A stretch of 16,957 nt of DNA from positions 1 through 16,957 of the forward strand of contig RFFQ01000050.1 of assembly GCA_003697105.1 (NCBI GenBank), in the 5' to 3' direction. The notes below the pieces were generated by a model. It was not told where the DNA came from. It saw only the letters and a program-made list of their open reading frames with translations, and ran no database searches. Both the position numbers and the translations under genes were made by a program. Source of the stretch: Gemmatimonadota bacterium. GTDB lineage: Bacteria > 4572-55 > J002. Below are positions 1,843 through 16,820 of the stretch, piece by piece; positions within the stretch are counted from its first letter, which is position 1; every line of letters begins with the position of its first letter.

Positions 1843-3465
1843 TCAATATGCGGTATGGCAATCCTTACATTCCATCCCCAGTGGCTTAAAGCGCCGGAAC
1901 GTATCCCCATTTTCCGCTACTTCCTGCGGGTGGCACTGCTCACAGGGAACTTCCGCATGAGCGCCATCCAGTTTAAACCGGGATGCCCGGTTGTGAGCAA
2001 ATTTTACCGGAGACCAATTTTGCATTGGGGTATGGCACTGCTCACAACTATCACCTGCAAATTGTCCCTGATGTATATCGCCGTGACAGCCTGCACAGCC
2101 GGTTTCCAACGGCGTGTACCGGACGACTTGCCGGTTATCCGGTTGGTGACATTTTTCACAGGCTTGCTCTGCATGTTTACCCACCAGTGGGAAGCGTGTC
2201 TGGTTATGGTCAAATGCGTACCGGACATCGTGCCAATCGTTCCGGCTATGGCACGTTTCACAGCCGGCAGACCCCATTTTGGCGCGGAATTGCCCTTCGT
2301 GCGGATCGGTGTGGCAGCCCTGACAACTGAGATCGCTAAAATCAAATTTAGGGGTTTGCCGGGAACGAATCGTGGTTTTGACATGGCACTCGTTGCAGGG
2401 CACTGCCAAATGCGCCCCGGAGAGCGGGTAACGGCTCTGCTGGTGATCGGTAAGGGCAAACTGCGCCGGTAAAAATCCGGTTGCGGCATGACAACTTTCG
2501 CACATGCCCTGATCGGGGCGGTCTTGAAACTGCCCTTGATGGTAATCGACATGGCAATCTCTACATTGATCCGCTTTCAGCGGGGTTGTGTAACGCCCGG
2601 AGGTGTGGCATTTGGCACAATCTACCGTTTGATGCTTGCCCTTTAGTGGAAATCCGGTTTTTGCATGATCAAAATCTTCTGCTAACCGGACGTTTTGCCA
2701 GTTTTGATTGTTGTGACAGTGCCGGCAATCCTGACCGAATGCACCTTGATGTGGATCGGTGTGGCACGCGGTGCAATTTTCAAATTGAAGTGGTTTGTAC
2801 TGGGTAAATTCGCCCAGATCATCCTGTTGCGTCCGGTGGCATTTGGCACAATCCACCTGTTGATGTGCTCCCTCCAGTTGAAATTGCGCTTGCCGGTGAT
2901 CGAATAACGGCGGTTTTTGCCAGGTTTCATTGGAATGGCAACGGCGGCAATCCGTGCCGAGCTGTCCGCGATGCTGGTCTGCATGGCAACTGAGGCAATC
3001 CGTTTGAAGTCCCAAAAATGTTTGGGTTTTATCGCTTCGTTGCGAGGGGTTATGGGCAATGTTTTTGGCTTGATGGCATTGCCGACATTCCAGTTTTTGG
3101 TGTGCGCCTTTCAGGGGGTAGCCGGTCAATTGGTGATCAAATTCCGTTTGGGGGGGTTGCCAGTAAATCAGATTAAACTCCCGTCCGTGATGCTCCGGAT
3201 GGCAGGTTGCACAGGTTTTTCCTTGTTGGTGCACGGTGGCGTGATACCCGCGACCGGCATCCACGAGCTGTTTGATTTCCATATGGCAGGCTAAACATTT
3301 TTCATCGGATTGTTTTTGACCCAGTTGGTGGCATTGGGTGCAATTTGCCATCCCTTCCAGATTCGCGTGTGCGGTGGAGAGTTTACCCGGCGAGATTTGG
3401 GCAACTCCGGGTTGAGCCAGACCGCTGATCAGAATGAAGAAGACGATGAAGATACGTTGCGTCAC
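1843..3465 (-). CDS. Secreted 20-heme c-type cytochrome
   Basis: Predicted 540-residue exported multiheme cytochrome c. A signal peptide spans about residues 1-23 (hydrophobic core IFIVFFILISGLA, ending near GVAQ). I count 20 CxxCH motifs from C42 to H537: an N-terminal group of three, five repeats of three and a final pair. The repeat reads DH...FPLxGxH, CxxCH, a loop with YxPL, CxxCH, DxHxGQF, CxxCH and W. The final repeat stops after its second haem, four residues from the end of the protein (CKDCHTAY). The start is GTG directly after the TAA of the flavoprotein gene, with AAAGGTGG a few bases upstream inside that gene, so translation is probably coupled. It is related in design to the next cytochrome but has different inter-haem loops. 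It probably accepts electrons from the membrane cytochrome b and passes them outward. Confidence 0.92.
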   Translation of the reverse strand: MTQRIFIVFFILISGLAQPGVAQISPGKLSTAHANLEGMANCTQCHQLGQKQSDEKCLACHMEIKQLVDAGRGYHATVHQQGKTCATCHPEHHGREFNLIYWQPPQTEFDHQLTGYPLKGAHQKLECRQCHQAKNIAHNPSQRSDKTQTFLGLQTDCLSCHADQHRGQLGTDCRRCHSNETWQKPPLFDHRQAQFQLEGAHQQVDCAKCHRTQQDDLGEFTQYKPLQFENCTACHTDPHQGAFGQDCRHCHNNQNWQNVRLAEDFDHAKTGFPLKGKHQTVDCAKCHTSGRYTTPLKADQCRDCHVDYHQGQFQDRPDQGMCESCHAATGFLPAQFALTDHQQSRYPLSGAHLAVPCNECHVKTTIRSRQTPKFDFSDLSCQGCHTDPHEGQFRAKMGSAGCETCHSRNDWHDVRYAFDHNQTRFPLVGKHAEQACEKCHQPDNRQVVRYTPLETGCAGCHGDIHQGQFAGDSCEQCHTPMQNWSPVKFAHNRASRFKLDGAHAEVPCEQCHPQEVAENGDTFRRFKPLGMECKDCHTAY

Positions 3466-4896
3466 TTACACCACCTTTGTTACGATTTCCACACCTAATT
3501 TTTGCAGGAATGCCGTCGGGGGTTCGCCGCCGATCATCACAAACACGTAGTCATTGGGAATTTTTTTGGTCTCATTCCCATTGATTGTCAACGTGACCTC
3601 TTTGGCGGTAATTTCTGTCACCTGTGAGTTCAGTAAGGGGATCACTGCACCGCTTTCTATGGCTTGTTGGATGCGCTCGACATTGCGTGCTTTTGCTCGC
3701 CGGAATTCCGATCCCCGGTAGGAGAGATAGACGGTGTTTCCCGGTTGTTTGGAGAGGCCTATAGCGGCTTCCAACGCGGAATCTCCGCCCCCGACAATCA
3801 GGATATAGCTACTGACGTAGGATTCCGCCTCGATCAGTTTATAGACCACTTTGGATAGTTCTTCGCCGGGGACGCCCAACTTCCGCGGTGTGCCTCGCTT
3901 GCCGACCGCTAACACTACCCGGCGTGCTTTGTATTCACCTTTGGTGGATCTTACCATAAAATAGCCGTTTTCACGCATGACATTCGTCACCCGTTCGTTG
4001 GTTCGGATTTCGACTTCTGTGTTGCGGATGATGGTTTCCCAAACTTCCAGCAGGGTTTCTTTTTCGGCTTCATTCATCCACAAACTGCCGTACATTGGAA
4101 TTTCGATGGGTTCTGCCATGACCAATTTGTGACGCGGATACTGCCGGATCGTACTTGCCAGTTCACCTTGTTCTAGGGTGATGTAGCTAAGCCCGTATTG
4201 TTTGGCGGTGAGAGAGGCACTGAGTCCGGCGGGTCCTGCCCCGATAATCGCGACATCCGTTACGCCCGGGGTTTTCACTTCCCCTTTAATTTCCTCATAA
4301 ATGTGATCGATTGCCAATTTGCCTTCATTCACGGCATTTTTGATGAGTGCCATACCGCCCAGTTCGCCAACGATATAGATTCCCCGGACGTTGGTCTCAA
4401 ATTTTTCATCGATTTGGGGGACTTCTACCGTTCGGACTTGATCCCCTTTGACCAGCACGATCGCCGACGTCGGGCATACATCCGCACATGAACCGTGCCC
4501 CATGCACGCAGGTAGGTTAATCACTTGCGCTTTACCGCCGATCACGTCCAACACGCCATCTTCTGGACACGCATCTACGCATGAGCCGCAACCGACGCAC
4601 ATGCTGGCGTTGATTAAGGGGTGTATTCGGGCTTCGGCATCCTCGCCGGTTGGGGCATCGGTGGTTTTTGCCGCCGCACTTTTGATCTCCCACATTTTCA
4701 TGGGGATACCACAATGGTCACAAAATGCCGCCCCTTTGCGTACAGGCGATCCACATTTGGGGCAATTCCGAGTCATGGAGGTAGGGGTTGGGCTAGGGGT
4801 ATTTTGGCTATTTCCATCCGCTATGGATTTAAGGTAGTTCCGTAAGAAGAATGCGATAATCGCACTCGATAAAATAAAAGTGATGAACGTTTCCAT
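3466..4896 (-). CDS. Membrane-anchored ferredoxin/FAD NAD(P)H oxidoreductase
   Basis: Predicted 476-residue flavoprotein that would oxidise NAD(P)H and feed Fe-S clusters. In order: a single N-terminal membrane helix (about 4-22, followed by R19 and K23, so the body is cytoplasmic by the positive-inside rule); a Pro/Thr/Ser linker; a zinc ribbon (C45, C48, C59, C62); a two-cluster ferredoxin (C100, C103, C106, C110, then C131, H134, C137, C141, with His in place of the second Cys); a segment GIYIVGELGG at 172-181; an FAD Rossmann motif GAGPAG (219-224); and an NAD(P) motif GGGDSA (369-374). It resembles thioredoxin-reductase-like flavoproteins but has no redox-active CxxC in the NADPH domain. 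The start at 4896 was chosen over 4968 because the helix begins there and CAGGA lies about 10 bases upstream. The next gene begins on the following base. Confidence 0.88.
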   Translation of the reverse strand: METFITFILSSAIIAFFLRNYLKSIADGNSQNTPSPTPTSMTRNCPKCGSPVRKGAAFCDHCGIPMKMWEIKSAAAKTTDAPTGEDAEARIHPLINASMCVGCGSCVDACPEDGVLDVIGGKAQVINLPACMGHGSCADVCPTSAIVLVKGDQVRTVEVPQIDEKFETNVRGIYIVGELGGMALIKNAVNEGKLAIDHIYEEIKGEVKTPGVTDVAIIGAGPAGLSASLTAKQYGLSYITLEQGELASTIRQYPRHKLVMAEPIEIPMYGSLWMNEAEKETLLEVWETIIRNTEVEIRTNERVTNVMRENGYFMVRSTKGEYKARRVVLAVGKRGTPRKLGVPGEELSKVVYKLIEAESYVSSYILIVGGGDSALEAAIGLSKQPGNTVYLSYRGSEFRRAKARNVERIQQAIESGAVIPLLNSQVTEITAKEVTLTINGNETKKIPNDYVFVMIGGEPPTAFLQKLGVEIVTKVV

Positions 4897-5014
4897 CGGT
4901 TCAAAATCCTGAACACAAGTTAAAAATATTGAACGGTATGCCGTGTGAGAGGGGGGGGAAGGGTACATGGCTCAATGCGTTGAACCCAACTATCCTGTTG
5001 GAGGCTTCCGCGGG
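4897..5014 (-). other. Gap with two small hairpins and a G8 run
   Basis: This 118-base gap lies between the cytochrome b gene and the flavoprotein gene. It holds two inverted repeats, each with a 5-bp stem and a 6-base loop: 4986-5001 (CCAAC/GTTGG) and 4899-4914 (GTTCA/TGAAC). The second covers the ribosome binding site of the flavoprotein gene. A run of eight G (plus strand) lies at 4951-4958. Neither hairpin is followed by a T-run, so I do not call a terminator, and no convincing promoter is visible. Confidence 0.5.
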
Positions 5015-7870: not shown

Positions 7871-9094
7871 CTAATCCCTGATTTTTAATTTCGCTTTCGC
7901 ATAATCCACCAGTAATTGGTATTGGTGATGCAGACTAAACTCCTCCACGCCTTGCGGGGATTTAAAGAAACACGCCAGATGGGGTTGTAAGCCGGCTTCA
8001 CCTTGTTGCTTGGCAAAGTCCGTAAAGCGGATTAAATCAAGGGCGAGTGGTGCGGCTAAAATCGAGTCACAACCTTGCCAAATGAACTGCAGAATCATTT
8101 TTGTATCCAAAAAGCCCTTAAAGTGGATGTGATCCCAAGCGGTTTTCCAATCATCGAGTGAGGGTACGTATTCAATCATGGTTTTGGTATAGGTCTGTTC
8201 GCCTAAAATCTCGTGAATGGTCTGATCTTTACTCTTTAATTTAGATTGTTTATTGATTGGATCATTTAAGATTTGACCGTCTCGATCTCCTAAAATATTG
8301 AATCCCGCCCAACTGAGTACTGGCATATTCCGCATAACGAACATGGGTGCCAGAACAGATTTCATCAGGGTTTCACCGGTTTTACCATCTTTGCCCATGT
8401 GGTTGGTATTGCGTTCTCGCGCCAGTTGATCCAGTGCGGGAGTGTCCGAGCCGATTGAGGGGGTGAAATTGACATATCCGTAGCCCAAATCCAACGCCGC
8501 GTAGGCATAAAGTGAGCTTGCCGCAATATTCTCCCGTTGGTCGGTTTGGATGACCCGGTGGAGTTCCTCTAGGGAATGGTACGAGGGTACTTCAAATAGA
8601 TGTGGTTGAAATGCTTCTGTAGATGCCAGATTCAGCATGACCAAATGGTCCAAGTGGTGTCGCTCGACAAAATCTTGTAAATCCTGCTGAATCGTTTGGA
8701 CGGCTTCTGCTAAGGGGAGGTGGTTTTTCTGCAATTCATGATCAGCTAAATCATCCACCACTTGCCCACAATTCAGCGTCAAACCATCTTTAATTTCCGT
8801 GTTGATGCTGTCAAGCTCTGTTTTGACGGCGTTCAGGGTGGCATAGCCCAGCGTACCTGTTTGAGCTTCCACTTCTAATGCACTGTCATACAAACTGATG
8901 TTGCGGATTTCATAACCGCCCCATACAATATCTTCTAACGGGATCAACCCTAATTGGTTGAATGGCGCATTTTCTGAAACCAGACCGGCGGCAGATGCCA
9001 ATCCTTTGCGGATGGCGTTCACCCCTACCAACATTGTCGTGCTAACGCCACCCTTCGCGCCCAATATCCAACAGCCGAGTTTACGATTTGCCAT
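7871..9094 (-). CDS. ino1: myo-Inositol-1-phosphate synthase
   Basis: A 407-residue enzyme that converts glucose 6-phosphate to 1L-myo-inositol 1-phosphate using bound NAD+ (EC 5.5.1.4). The N-terminal nucleotide-binding stretch WILGAKGGVSTT (9-20) and the conserved catalytic core are clear: LGYGYVNFTPS (203-213), MGKDGKTGETLMKS (233-246), LSWAGFNILGDRDG (260-273) and the lysine-rich KLKSKD (285-290) that contributes active-site lysines. The length fits the shorter prokaryotic enzymes. AAGGAG lies about 9 bases before the ATG. Inositol phosphate could serve inositol phospholipids, which would fit the acyltransferase next door, or a compatible solute such as di-myo-inositol phosphate; the sequence does not decide. 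Confidence 0.95.
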   Translation of the reverse strand: MANRKLGCWILGAKGGVSTTMLVGVNAIRKGLASAAGLVSENAPFNQLGLIPLEDIVWGGYEIRNISLYDSALEVEAQTGTLGYATLNAVKTELDSINTEIKDGLTLNCGQVVDDLADHELQKNHLPLAEAVQTIQQDLQDFVERHHLDHLVMLNLASTEAFQPHLFEVPSYHSLEELHRVIQTDQRENIAASSLYAYAALDLGYGYVNFTPSIGSDTPALDQLARERNTNHMGKDGKTGETLMKSVLAPMFVMRNMPVLSWAGFNILGDRDGQILNDPINKQSKLKSKDQTIHEILGEQTYTKTMIEYVPSLDDWKTAWDHIHFKGFLDTKMILQFIWQGCDSILAAPLALDLIRFTDFAKQQGEAGLQPHLACFFKSPQGVEEFSLHHQYQLLVDYAKAKLKIRD

Positions 9095-11893: not shown

Positions 11894-14800
11894 TTATGCT
11901 TGGGTTGTGGTGCCCATCCGTAATTCCCGCGCGGCGTCGGTAACGGCATTGATTTTCACGGCATAACTGGTGCGATTTTCAATATCTTCATCCGTCACCA
12001 GATGAACATCCAGCAGACCATTGGACGTTTCACCGGTGCGTAGATAGTTTAACTCTGCTAGACAAATACTCCATCCTTCAAGCCAGTTTAGTAAGTTCTG
12101 CCGTTGTTCCGGGGTACCACTTACATGGAGTAGCAGATCGATGTCACTGCCGGGTCCGGCGGTGGCATTTTTGGTACTGCCAAACAGGTAGAACGCTTTG
12201 ACGCCAAATCGTTGCGGGTCAAGTTGTGCGGCGATCTTTTCCGCCATGCGCAACCGCCAACGCCAGTGATCGTCATTGGATTTTTGCGGAGGGTAGGTCT
12301 CTTTAACGGCGATCTGCTCGTGGAATTCCGGCGGTTTGGCGGTTGTCAACAGCCCAACAGCTTCTTCGTCATCGCCGTTCATTAGCACGGTGAGTATTTG
12401 CCCGTGGGTGACTTCCGGGACATCGATCACCCGGATGACCTCCGCAAACGCCTCGTGTTGGGGCAATATCTCAGAAAAGACGTTTGGGCTTTCTGTTAAA
12501 AAGGATTCGTTGAACACGATACCTTCATCATCCGGGTAGAGCGGCAAATACCGGATGCCGGCTTCCACCAAATCTTGGAAAAAGTGGGTCCCGAAGGAGA
12601 GATCGGGCACGTAATTGCCTTTTTTGCGGGCAATTTCGATCAACATGGCGGTGTTGTTAATGTCGGAGTAGGTTACATTGACTCCCAATTTAATGTCTCC
12701 CCGGCTCCCCCAGCGACCGGGTCCCATCAAGATAAACTGCCGTTTGGGGAGTAATTGATTTAACTTGCCTACCGCGCGACCCACTTTGAATAATGCCTCG
12801 CGAGAATCCAGTTCCGCGTATTTTTGCGGGTCCACATACACAATGTGGGTGATGCCGGTGACGGTGCCGTTGGTTATGTAACGGTTAGCAGAAAAGATCA
12901 GTTCTTCTGGATTGATGTCCGTTGGAATTTCTGCCGGTTTGCTATCGGCGGCGTAGCTTTGGGGACGGCATTGGAGCAGATAAAAGTCCGTGCCGTCACA
13001 GGCAAATTCAATATCCACCGGTGTGCCAAGGGTCTGTTGCAACACGGTGAGTATGGCGTGAATCTTTTTGACAAAATTTGTATTTTTAATCAAGCCGTCA
13101 AACGTAACAACCATTTCATCGTGTTCAAAATCGAGGTGCATCCCCATTGGGGTTTGGATGTGATTTTGTTTGACGATAGAAACGACCTGATTGATACGAG
13201 GGTAATCGAACCCATGTTTACGCAAAAGGTCCTCGATTGGAATGGTTTCAAACTGGTTTGTTTTGAGGTTAATCACATCAATTTCTTTCGGTGAATACCA
13301 GATTTTTTCATCGACGGTGACATTGGCTCGTAACCCCGGCTGCCCTGGTGCGATTAAAATCGGGTAATCATTGGTACGATCCACAGCTCGGGTACCTAAG
13401 CCCGGGACGAGCCGTACCAAGCCATCGGAGCGTTTAATGCGGGGTGACCACCGGAATTCGTTGTTACTAAAAGCAACACCAGCATATGCCGGCAGAAAAT
13501 AATCCCCAATGCGAGTCCCAGCGACTGCCTGAATCAGGATGCCCATTTCTTCATGAAAATCCAGCAGTCCTCGTTCGGCGCGGTACTCAATGGGGTCGGG
13601 TCCAAACGTAGAGGCGTAAACTTCCTGAATGGCATCGATCAATGCTGCCATACGTTCTGCTTTCGTACCTTGATTGGCAATAAATAAGGATTTGTATTTG
13701 CCCGCAAAGGCAGTTCCCATACGGTCTTCCAGTAAGCTGGAACTGCGCACTACCAGGGGTTGCGTGCCGAAATCATCGAGGGCGTAGGATAATCCTTTAA
13801 TAATTTCCTCTGGAAAGTGTGAATTTTTAAATACTTGAATAATCGAGGGGTATTCTTGCCGCACTTGCCCAATGTCTTTGTATTTTTGCTCGACCACGTC
13901 TTCCAGATTGTTGTAATGTAAAAAACTGAGGATGGCATCTGAGGTAATGTACCACGTTTTCGGAATTTTGATGTCTTTTAGCAGGTCTTGCTGTTCTTTG
14001 GAGCGTTTCAAAATCCGGTTAGCTAAAACTAGCCCTGCCGCTTTACCGCCCAACTTACCCCGGCTATCAGTGGGATGGATCACGTGGTGCATCAAATCGT
14101 AAAAATCGGCTAGGGTGATGTACTCCTTGGCGATATTGACAAAATCCTGTTGGTCCATCAAAAAGCGCTGGATCAGCGAGACCCGGAATGCCTTTTCGCG
14201 CGGGCTGGAGAGTTGATGTCCTTCCGGGTCGAAATGATGATACCGCCCGATGGCATCTGCTACTTCACCCAGTGAGGTGCCCGCATTTTCCAGAATATTG
14301 ACCAGAAAATTTGATTTTTCCTCTTTGATCCATTTTTGGATACTGACGAGTGTTTCCCCTTCTCCCAAATAGTCCGAAGCCAGTTCAAAAATCTGGTCAC
14401 TGATGGAATCAATGTTTTTGATTTCACTGCGGCGTTGGGGGCGGTTTGCTTCGTTCACACTCAAAAGGTCACTATCTGTTTCGATTTTGGGGGTAAAATA
14501 TTCCAGGAGGGCTTCGGCGGCTTTACAACCATTCCAACAAAGGTAATTTGCCATTTTGCGCGAGATGCGGCGCAGTAATTGGGGGTCTGTTTGGCGTAAT
14601 AGCTCCAACGCAACACGCCAATTTTTGGATGCCGCGCCGGATTTCTCCCGCTGAAACACCTCTTTCAATTGGTGGTGTAAAATAAAATGGCTGATCCGGT
14701 CGGCAATGGTGTTGATCAACTTGCGTTCTTCTTGTAAAAAGGGACCTTCATCGATTGTGGGCATCTCTTCAAGGTAGTAAATGCTGATCTTTCCGACTTC

Positions 14801-15076
14801 CTCATCATGGACAATGATGGGGGCTTCCTGCACCCACGGCGTGGGTTCAAATTCCGCGGATTGGAAGACCTGATCTTGATAACAAATTTGGGCTTGGCAG
14901 ATGTCGGGGTATTGCCAACCCGGTGGTAAATGATGAACGATTTCATTTAGAACTTCCGGGATCGAATATTCTGTGTGTACGGTGAGTTCTTCCACTTTAT
15001 ACAGGCAGTTGAGTTCTTTCGCTCGTTCTTGTAAATCTTGGATGATTTTATCCATCGGTTCATTTTTAGTGATCAT
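11894..15076 (-). CDS. GAF-sensor PPDK-type ATP-grasp protein with nucleotidyltransferase domain
   Basis: A 1060-residue multidomain protein of unknown function. In order: a GAF-type sensor (about 18-140; NCLYKVEEL, PPGWQYPDI, EGPFLQEERKLI) of the kind usually attached to histidine kinases; a helical linker (about 150-330); a PPDK/PEP-synthase ATP-grasp domain (GGKAAGL 343-349, VRSSSLLED 443-451, VDIEF...LLQCRP 687-705); a block with GPGRWGS (785-791) and SFGTHFF (827-833) shared with the upstream gene; and a nucleotidyltransferase domain (FGSTKN from 965, SDIDLLL 977-983, possible third Asp in LLDVHLV 1021-1027). There is no recognisable PEP/pyruvate barrel. I chose the ATG at 15076, preceded by GGAAAGGAAAG, 13 bases after the previous stop; an ATG at 15130 would overlap that gene. 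It may phosphorylate or nucleotidylate a target in response to a ligand, which is inference. Confidence 0.85.
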   Translation of the reverse strand: MITKNEPMDKIIQDLQERAKELNCLYKVEELTVHTEYSIPEVLNEIVHHLPPGWQYPDICQAQICYQDQVFQSAEFEPTPWVQEAPIIVHDEEVGKISIYYLEEMPTIDEGPFLQEERKLINTIADRISHFILHHQLKEVFQREKSGAASKNWRVALELLRQTDPQLLRRISRKMANYLCWNGCKAAEALLEYFTPKIETDSDLLSVNEANRPQRRSEIKNIDSISDQIFELASDYLGEGETLVSIQKWIKEEKSNFLVNILENAGTSLGEVADAIGRYHHFDPEGHQLSSPREKAFRVSLIQRFLMDQQDFVNIAKEYITLADFYDLMHHVIHPTDSRGKLGGKAAGLVLANRILKRSKEQQDLLKDIKIPKTWYITSDAILSFLHYNNLEDVVEQKYKDIGQVRQEYPSIIQVFKNSHFPEEIIKGLSYALDDFGTQPLVVRSSSLLEDRMGTAFAGKYKSLFIANQGTKAERMAALIDAIQEVYASTFGPDPIEYRAERGLLDFHEEMGILIQAVAGTRIGDYFLPAYAGVAFSNNEFRWSPRIKRSDGLVRLVPGLGTRAVDRTNDYPILIAPGQPGLRANVTVDEKIWYSPKEIDVINLKTNQFETIPIEDLLRKHGFDYPRINQVVSIVKQNHIQTPMGMHLDFEHDEMVVTFDGLIKNTNFVKKIHAILTVLQQTLGTPVDIEFACDGTDFYLLQCRPQSYAADSKPAEIPTDINPEELIFSANRYITNGTVTGITHIVYVDPQKYAELDSREALFKVGRAVGKLNQLLPKRQFILMGPGRWGSRGDIKLGVNVTYSDINNTAMLIEIARKKGNYVPDLSFGTHFFQDLVEAGIRYLPLYPDDEGIVFNESFLTESPNVFSEILPQHEAFAEVIRVIDVPEVTHGQILTVLMNGDDEEAVGLLTTAKPPEFHEQIAVKETYPPQKSNDDHWRWRLRMAEKIAAQLDPQRFGVKAFYLFGSTKNATAGPGSDIDLLLHVSGTPEQRQNLLNWLEGWSICLAELNYLRTGETSNGLLDVHLVTDEDIENRTSYAVKINAVTDAARELRMGTTTQA

Positions 15077-15089
15077 GACTTTCCTTTCC

Positions 15090-16820
15090 TTAGCTCTTAT
15101 GAATGACGCCGCGTCCGGTGCGTCCATCAACTTTAATTATGAGCGGGTTGTGCAGACGGATATGCCGTAAAAAGTGAGTTTCGTAGTGGTGATCCTGATG
15201 GTCGAGCCAGTTCCAATCAATGGGATATTTGCTGTGATGCGGCACTGAAAAGTAGCGAACTTGAAAACTGCTGATATTATGAAAAAAATGAGACCCTTGG
15301 CTTAGTTCCACATCCATATGGGGAAGGGTGGCTTCCACAATCACTTTCGCCCCAGAGATATGTACCCACCGTACCGGAATGCCCAACCAGGGGTCGGAAC
15401 TGCCCCAACGTCCAAAACCAATGAGTAGATAAAATAGGTTTTCCGAGCGGAGTTTGTTGTTGAGTTGTTCCAATTCCTGTACGATTTGCGGGGTGTACTT
15501 GGCTTGGAACTCTTCCGGTTTGACATATAGGATGTCCTTTAAGGTGTTGATAATGCCATTACCCATCACATGGTCTGAAGCGGCGAGCGCATGGTCACTT
15601 CGCATTTCTCGTTCCGTAATGGTGACTTCCTCGTGCGAGACGACCATCGGTCGAACTTGTAACGCCCCAAATTGATGGGGATTCAGGGTCATGGCAAATT
15701 CCACTTCCACCGGCTCTTGGATGTGTTCCTCACACAGGGCAAGCAAGCGTTCGATTAGCGGATTTAATGGTATATCATTGAGATGTAAGATGGGGGCAAA
15801 CGTAATAATGCGAGGTCCTTTAATACCCGTGCCCATGACAATTCGGGATGAATGGGGGTCGTAAGTGGAAGCGATGTAGCGCAAACTGCCATCGTATTCC
15901 GCATCATTTAGGTTGCATTTGACCAGATATTCCGTTTCGTGAATTGGATCGTATGCCGGTGGTTTACCTAAATTGACTGCCCAAAATTCCGTTTGAGTTT
16001 GTTTCAGCCAGTCGCGGATCGAGCCAAACGGGGGAGATACGCGAGGGCGCGCCGGTGAATATGCCCATGACACCCCGCCATCTACCACCGATTTACCCAA
16101 TCCCAATGCCAAATTGACGACACCTTCCTCCGGTTTGGCGCCCCCCACCGGATAAAAATTGTATGATCGCGCCACGCCCGAAATAGTGGGATAAAATCGG
16201 TCCCCATGACGCCGCCCGACCACCTCCTGAATGATCACCGCCATTTTTTCATGGTGGGGTTCATTTTGGGTTTCTCGTAGATAATCTTGTGCTATGCTGA
16301 AGAAGGTTGATGCATAAATGAATTTCACGGCTTCTATCAATTTGTGGAACCGGACATCTGTTTCCACCTGATTATTGGGAATCATTTTTGTGCTGTAAAT
16401 ACCAGCGAATGGCTCGTACAGGGCATCTTCCAGTTTGCTTGATGAGCGCACCGCCAACGGATGTTTGTAGGAAAGCACCACCGCGCGCAAATCTCCGATC
16501 ACACTACCGGGAAAGCTGCCTTTTTGGAACACATTGGCGATCACGTGGTCGGCGGGACCGGATTCGAGGAATTCATATAACCGGTTGTGTTCCATGAACG
16601 CATCAAATACATCGGTGCCAATCACCGTGAACGCAGGTACTTTCACTTGCACCGAGGGGAATTCAGCCGGATCGTAGCCTTTTGCCAGCAGGGTATGCAG
16701 AAAGACCAATCCTTGTGCTTTTCCCCCAATAGAACCCCCGCCGATGATGCTCGGATGGGCTTGACCATAGCTGTCATGCCGGTTAAAGCGCGGCAGTTCA
16801 GGCGAAATGTTTAAGTGCAT
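15090..16820 (-). CDS. PPDK-type ATP-grasp protein, barrel-less
   Basis: A 576-residue protein with the nucleotide-binding half of pyruvate phosphate dikinase/PEP synthase. The ATP-grasp landmarks are IGGKAQGL (31-38), PLAVRSSSKLED (121-132) with FAGIYST after it, and VEVEFAM...LQVRPM (371-391). A C-terminal block follows with GFGRWGS (468-474) and SQGSHFF (507-513), matching the downstream gene. There is no pyruvate/PEP TIM barrel and no canonical swivel motif (TGGxxSHxA type), so it is unlikely to make PEP by itself. It lacks the GAF and nucleotidyltransferase domains of its downstream partner. The two genes are 13 bases apart and surely co-transcribed, so the proteins may work as a complex or as kinase and regulator. 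The start codon has only a weak AAGAGA upstream. Databases would probably call it a PEP/pyruvate-binding domain protein. Confidence 0.85.
   Translation of the reverse strand: MHLNISPELPRFNRHDSYGQAHPSIIGGGSIGGKAQGLVFLHTLLAKGYDPAEFPSVQVKVPAFTVIGTDVFDAFMEHNRLYEFLESGPADHVIANVFQKGSFPGSVIGDLRAVVLSYKHPLAVRSSSKLEDALYEPFAGIYSTKMIPNNQVETDVRFHKLIEAVKFIYASTFFSIAQDYLRETQNEPHHEKMAVIIQEVVGRRHGDRFYPTISGVARSYNFYPVGGAKPEEGVVNLALGLGKSVVDGGVSWAYSPARPRVSPPFGSIRDWLKQTQTEFWAVNLGKPPAYDPIHETEYLVKCNLNDAEYDGSLRYIASTYDPHSSRIVMGTGIKGPRIITFAPILHLNDIPLNPLIERLLALCEEHIQEPVEVEFAMTLNPHQFGALQVRPMVVSHEEVTITEREMRSDHALAASDHVMGNGIINTLKDILYVKPEEFQAKYTPQIVQELEQLNNKLRSENLFYLLIGFGRWGSSDPWLGIPVRWVHISGAKVIVEATLPHMDVELSQGSHFFHNISSFQVRYFSVPHHSKYPIDWNWLDHQDHHYETHFLRHIRLHNPLIIKVDGRTGRGVIHKS

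Follow-up and report, generated by a model that had tools for sequence, protein, structure and literature searches.

Two adjacent genes of one contig, here termed A and B, raise the question of what a pair of dikinase-like proteins might act on when neither carries the domain that binds pyruvate or PEP. A sequence-only reading of the locus had described both products as proteins with an intact PPDK-type ATP-grasp, a missing TIM barrel and a common, unnamed domain (GRWGS/HFF), one partner adding sensor and nucleotidyltransferase domains. An undescribed phosphotransfer or signalling system with no known acceptor had been proposed.

Gene organisation

The window analysed is the entire contig of 16,957 bases, which belongs to a 4.18-Mb, 97%-complete genome. 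A and B are adjacent open reading frames on the minus strand near its right end, and the contig ends only 137 bases upstream of B. Coordinates of both genes and of their domains are collated in Table 1.

Table 1. Genes A and B and their domains (positions in the window).
Feature	Position	Strand	Description
B	15090..16820	minus	576 aa; ATP-grasp aa 30-400 and predicted swivelling phosphohistidine domain aa ~403-576, candidate phospho-acceptor His511
A	11894..15076	minus	~1060 aa; order GAF, helical region, ATP-grasp, predicted swivel (candidate His833, 1062-aa construct), nucleotidyltransferase
B, shared block	15093..15644	minus	aa 393-576; GFGRWGS, GSHFF, C-terminal VDGRTGRGVI; swivel-like in AlphaFold model
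A, shared block	12329..12913	minus	~aa 722-916 of 1062-aa construct; GPGRWGS, FGTHFF; swivel-like
A, C-terminal nucleotidyltransferase domain	11894..12280	minus	PF01909, E 8e-7; GS...DxD and third Asp
A, N-terminal GAF domain	14626..15055	minus	structure match 3cit, Z 12.7, 126 residues

The open frame of A spans positions 11894-15130. Its start is likely the ATG at 15076 (MITKNEP...), 13 nt past the stop of B and with AAGGAAAGG ahead of it; this start was preferred to a longer form beginning at the TTG at 15130, which is unlikely.

Elsewhere in the window, two adjacent minus-strand genes (39-1910 and 1843-3465) encode CxxCH-rich, multihaem cytochrome-like proteins, beside which a ferredoxin/YpdA-like flavoprotein is encoded (3466-4968). 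A homologue of myo-inositol-1-phosphate synthase (PF07994, PF01658) is encoded on the minus strand at 7871-9094.

ATP-grasp heads and catalytic residues

Matches to PPDK_N (PF01326) above the cut-off were obtained for both A (residues 358-737, E 3e-59) and B (residues 30-400, E 4e-36). The ATP-grasp lysine, arginine, acidic pair and glutamine are invariant in 27/27 A and 27/27 B sequences; in B the invariant residues (27/27) are K34, R125, E372, E374, Q388 and, beyond the ATP-grasp, H511. No PEP/pyruvate-binding TIM barrel was found in A or B, either by Pfam search or in the AlphaFold models: past the swivel region B stops and A runs on into the nucleotidyltransferase. The two observations from which the earlier reading had started, intact heads in adjacent genes and the missing barrel, are thereby borne out.

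The NCBIfam search of A and B returned only partial matches of the PEP synthase (PEPS) type, far under the cut-offs, and no match to rifampin phosphotransferase (RPH) above the cut-off; the sequence search of solved structures gave none closer than E 0.008. An ordinary truncated PEP synthase or a pseudogene is ruled out because the catalytic residues are invariant over many phyla and because a distinct PPDK-type gene of 912 aa, with PF01326 and PF00391, is present elsewhere in the genome (contig C145). Contamination or chance pairing of A and B is likewise ruled out, the pair being conserved over phyla.

Identity of the shared block

By hhalign, the A-block and the B-block were aligned with a probability of 99.8 (E 3e-28), and the two are homologous. 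GRWGS and HFF hardly vary: every A sequence keeps them (27/27), and in B each column is conserved in 19-27/27, with T in place of the last S of GRWGS in 8 sequences and L in place of the W in 2. Among the 71 relatives examined, HFF is present in 71/71 and GR(W/L)G(S/T) in all but two, and the histidine of HFF is invariant in all three sets (27/27 A, 27/27 B, 71/71 relatives).

AlphaFold models were obtained for B (pLDDT 87, pTM 0.86) and A (pLDDT 82, pTM 0.65) and compared with PDB entries over the whole chain. The B model matched 5hv1 (Z 26.1), Neisseria PEP synthase 2OLS (Z 25.9, rmsd 4.4, 365 residues, model 8-576 against chain 7-466) and PPDK 1DIK (Z 18.1, rmsd 4.9, 349 residues, model 6-576 against chain 8-510); the A model matched 2OLS (Z 25.5) and 1DIK (Z 18.4, rmsd 5.2, 352 residues, chain 12-522). 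PPDK entries matching by the ATP-grasp alone gave about 230 aligned residues, against about 350-365 when the alignment ran through the block. Since the central (phosphohistidine) domain of PPDK comprises residues 380-515 (PMC5371819) and these alignments reach residues 510-522, the block sits at the place of the swivel. In the B model the elements of the block run beta-beta-alpha-beta-beta-[GSH]-alpha-beta-beta strands. Both models have two strands, a helix, a strand, a further strand, the G-(S/T)-H opening a helix, a strand and C-terminal strands; the swivel of PPDK has this same element order. When A was compared with RPH (5hv2), the match skipped the rifampin-binding domain and its last aligned pair was residue 847 of the A model with residue 838 of the chain, which is consistent with A His833 lying at the position of RPH His825.

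Sequence profiles gave a different picture. The PF00391 profile, searched over the genome, matched neither A nor B; hhalign of the blocks against a 24-sequence swivel profile was not significant, and when relatives were pooled and shuffled controls included, the scores of block against swivel fell below those of the controls. Profile comparison is thus blind to any relation with the swivel, and the swivel identity rests on structure. These negative profile results are what would be expected if the block were an unrelated new fold filling the place of the swivel, in proteins that are not dikinases in mechanism, a reading that we hold to be quite improbable: the structural alignments with PEPS and PPDK continue across the block until the swivel ends, block and swivel share one order of elements, and in the models the invariant histidine opens the same helix. 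A forced full-length alignment, which carries no confidence, places the HFF histidine of B opposite the catalytic TSH of PEPS.

The shared block is therefore predicted, from position and element order in the models and with whole-chain Z scores only, to be a swivelling phosphohistidine domain with the HFF histidine where expected; the position of this residue in the models and its invariance suggest that it would be the phospho-carrier. The run of GNG/TNG turn, GRWGS, LG and HFF, previously taken for a new domain, would then be no stand-alone unnamed fold, as it fits a swivelling phosphohistidine domain in the models. Of the two domains that had seemed missing from both proteins, a swivel-like domain was found by modelling, whereas the barrel is still absent.

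Distribution and gene neighbourhood

A/B-type proteins were found in 70/386 sampled bacterial genomes, and A in 34/40 genomes of one phylum in a second sample, drawn around the phylum to which one carrier belongs. In six of seven named relatives (Calditrichaeota, Coatesbacteria, Delongbacteria, KSB1, a deltaproteobacterial MAG, Planctomycetota and an uncultured MAG) a gene for an ELFV-type glutamate dehydrogenase (GDH) lies ahead of the pair, the exception, KSB1, being a 3.4-kb fragment. When all open reading frames from 51 neighbourhoods were clustered without supervision, GDH stood out as the one strongly recurrent neighbour, with 30 loci, followed by a metallophosphoesterase with 11, and every other cluster had at most four; for GDH the binomial probability is 5e-40 at a rough expectation of less than 2% per locus, with loci that are partly dependent.

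Two arrangements were observed, GDH directly ahead of A, and GDH-B-A on the same strand with a gap of 60-213 nt between GDH and B. Among 29 further loci of the second sample, GDH is the immediate neighbour of A in 19, and B lies ahead of A in seven others, where the short flank leaves too little room for GDH. From these counts the basic unit is taken to be GDH-A, with B inserted between the two in many lineages; in the second sample A adjoins GDH also without B. The linkage extends to the base of the A family in the tree, and the catalytic motifs of the linked GDH are intact. More than half of the distant A relatives of 870 aa or shorter have no GDH nearby.

In the genome under study a matching 428-aa GDH is encoded at the start of contig C159 in compatible orientation, and the contig-join test between the window and C159 gave no overlap. 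The link was invisible to the sequence-only reading because the contig ends so close upstream of B. The proposed conservation of the pair holds, A-B pairs recurring across phyla with GDH as their recurrent neighbour; the statement that no acceptor was known stands, but the genes of A and B are tightly linked to GDH.

The calcineurin-like metallophosphoesterase gene is convergent to or beside A in its 11 neighbourhoods (for example L025:14940-15806), and its product is a possible reversing phosphatase. In one phylum (loci L161, L163, L164, L165, L167 and L168) A lies between two types of GDH, of 428 aa and about 450 aa.

Neither PII nor a uridylyltransferase domain of the GlnD/GlnE type (PF08335, absent also from A) was found in the 97%-complete genome. 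Across 80 genomes, with a clear PII defined by E under 1e-10, PII was present in 2/19 genomes with an adjacent A-B pair, compared with 39/61 others (Fisher p 5e-5, an exploratory value in which shared ancestry is ignored). This exploratory association of the adjacent pair with absence of PII is taken as a lead only.

Accessory domains and family history

Both domains that had been assigned to one partner were recovered in A. The sensor has a GAF fold by structure comparison (Table 1), and the Calditrichaeota relative at L025 gave a sub-threshold Pfam GAF match. The Pfam match of the C-terminal domain is to NTP_transf_2, its structural matches by Foldseek are to nucleotidyltransferases of the AadA/MNT type, and among the A sequences carrying it the DxD is kept in 17/18 and the third Asp in 18/18.

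In a tree of 71 relatives together with PEPS, A and B form two well-supported families on long branches apart from PEPS. Lone B (16 sequences) is one clade nested within B fused to a response regulator, and A with the nucleotidyltransferase (19 sequences) is one clade nested within shorter forms of A. On this tree, lone B derives from response-regulator-fused B, and the nucleotidyltransferase was gained by A. The genome itself holds a response-regulator-fused paralogue of B (C7:18572-22684, about 1128 aa, receiver domain aa 9-118), which adjoins an aminotransferase-like gene and has no GDH nearby.

The receiver, GAF and nucleotidyltransferase fusions, together with the lack of an acceptor domain, would also suit a regulatory ATPase or energy sensor, in which autophosphorylation of the histidine changes the conformation and governs the output of the attached response regulator or nucleotidyltransferase, with no onward transfer. 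We consider this improbable; the ATP-grasp residues and the histidine of lone B are invariant although this form has no output domain.

Comparison with known dikinases

A and B are two families of dikinases, far from PEPS and with the acceptor domain absent. With PEPS and PPDK (PF01326, PF00391 and a PEP-binding TIM barrel), which are among their best whole-chain PDB matches, they share an ATP-grasp with the same catalytic residues and, directly C-terminal to it, a swivel domain with an invariant histidine (swivel-like and predicted in A and B). They differ in lacking the barrel, in the swivel motif (GGxTSHAA in PEPS/PPDK; SxG(S/T)HFF, plus a GRWGS loop and a long helix, in A and B) and in forming a distant, separate branch of the tree. 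RPH, with the His-swivel dikinase chemistry that is predicted for A and B as well, is their top fold match (Z 26); it carries a rifampin-binding domain between the ATP-grasp and a swivel at the far C terminus, whereas the models of A and B have no such region and their swivel lies next to the ATP-grasp. GlnD and GlnE likewise link a nucleotidyltransferase to nitrogen assimilation, and the GS...DxD domain of A, encoded beside GDH, resembles them by analogy only: it is of a different (AadA/MNT-like) subtype and has no GlnD_UR_UTase domain. No characterised family with the architecture of A or B was found in Pfam, NCBIfam or the literature searched, and searches of open-access literature gave no description of a dikinase in a GDH context or of response regulator-PPDK_N proteins.

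HpeHI, CreHI and PpsAB resemble A-B in being encoded by two adjacent genes that hold dikinase parts (PMC12167813), and they provide the main rival to a relay on GDH. A and B could together be a two-component dikinase that phosphorylates a metabolite of the glutamate/2-oxoglutarate/ammonia node. The acceptor site would then lie where A and B meet or within the GAF/helical part, and GDH would be a neighbour in the pathway, not a target. The known two-component systems do use small molecules, with their domains split over two chains (PMC12167813), and the characterised superfamily members are mostly metabolic. In those systems, however, the ATP-grasp forms one chain by itself and the other chain contains the swivel and a substrate domain, whereas A and B each hold both core parts (the swivel as predicted) and neither has an obvious acceptor domain; moreover, the GAF, nucleotidyltransferase and response-regulator fusions appear regulatory, and A is found beside GDH without B. 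On balance a small-molecule kinase is considered rather unlikely.

Proposed mechanism

The reading of A and B as an ATP-to-phosphohistidine relay that serves or controls GDH, its acceptor inferred, is one for which we judge the case evenly poised. A and B would be dikinases cut down to a two-part core of ATP-grasp and swivelling histidine domain. In PEPS, PPDK and RPH the ATP-grasp phosphorylates the swivel histidine (PMC4844700), and from this established chemistry the same is expected of A and B. Each protein would transfer a phosphoryl group from ATP to a histidine of its own (His833 in A, His511 in B), with AMP and Pi, or PPi, as products. As neither protein has a barrel or any other domain that could accept it, this group would have to pass to a partner. 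Gene linkage points to GDH, whose gene lies directly upstream, as the partner that the relay would serve or control. GDH activity would then be set by energy and nitrogen or carbon status, with the GAF of A as sensor; the nucleotidyltransferase of A would be a further modifying activity, and the metallophosphoesterase often encoded nearby might be the reversing phosphatase.

Autophosphorylation of A and B, the direction of transfer and GDH as the target, as opposed to a small molecule on its pathway, are what we infer from these data; a physical action on GDH would go beyond what gene linkage can show. A regulatory relay on GDH or its pathway is the reading favoured by the linkage to GDH and by the fusions to GAF, nucleotidyltransferase and receiver domains. 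The proposal of an undescribed phosphotransfer system remains plausible, and GDH now gives it a concrete candidate partner; a signalling role would be plausible in view of the GAF, nucleotidyltransferase and response-regulator fusions.

Conclusions

The most extended form of the proposal, that two acceptor-less dikinases, one of them with GAF and nucleotidyltransferase domains, relay phosphoryl and/or nucleotidyl groups to GDH as a PII-independent nitrogen-control module that replaces PII/GlnD/GlnE in many uncultured phyla, is put forward tentatively. Generic annotation masks A/B-type proteins as PEP synthases. If A and B act on GDH, they would be dikinases aimed at a protein and not at a small molecule or glucan, and they would provide a new means of controlling how ammonia is assimilated or glutamate broken down in lineages mostly without PII. 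With GDH as the partner, the function of A and B becomes directly testable.
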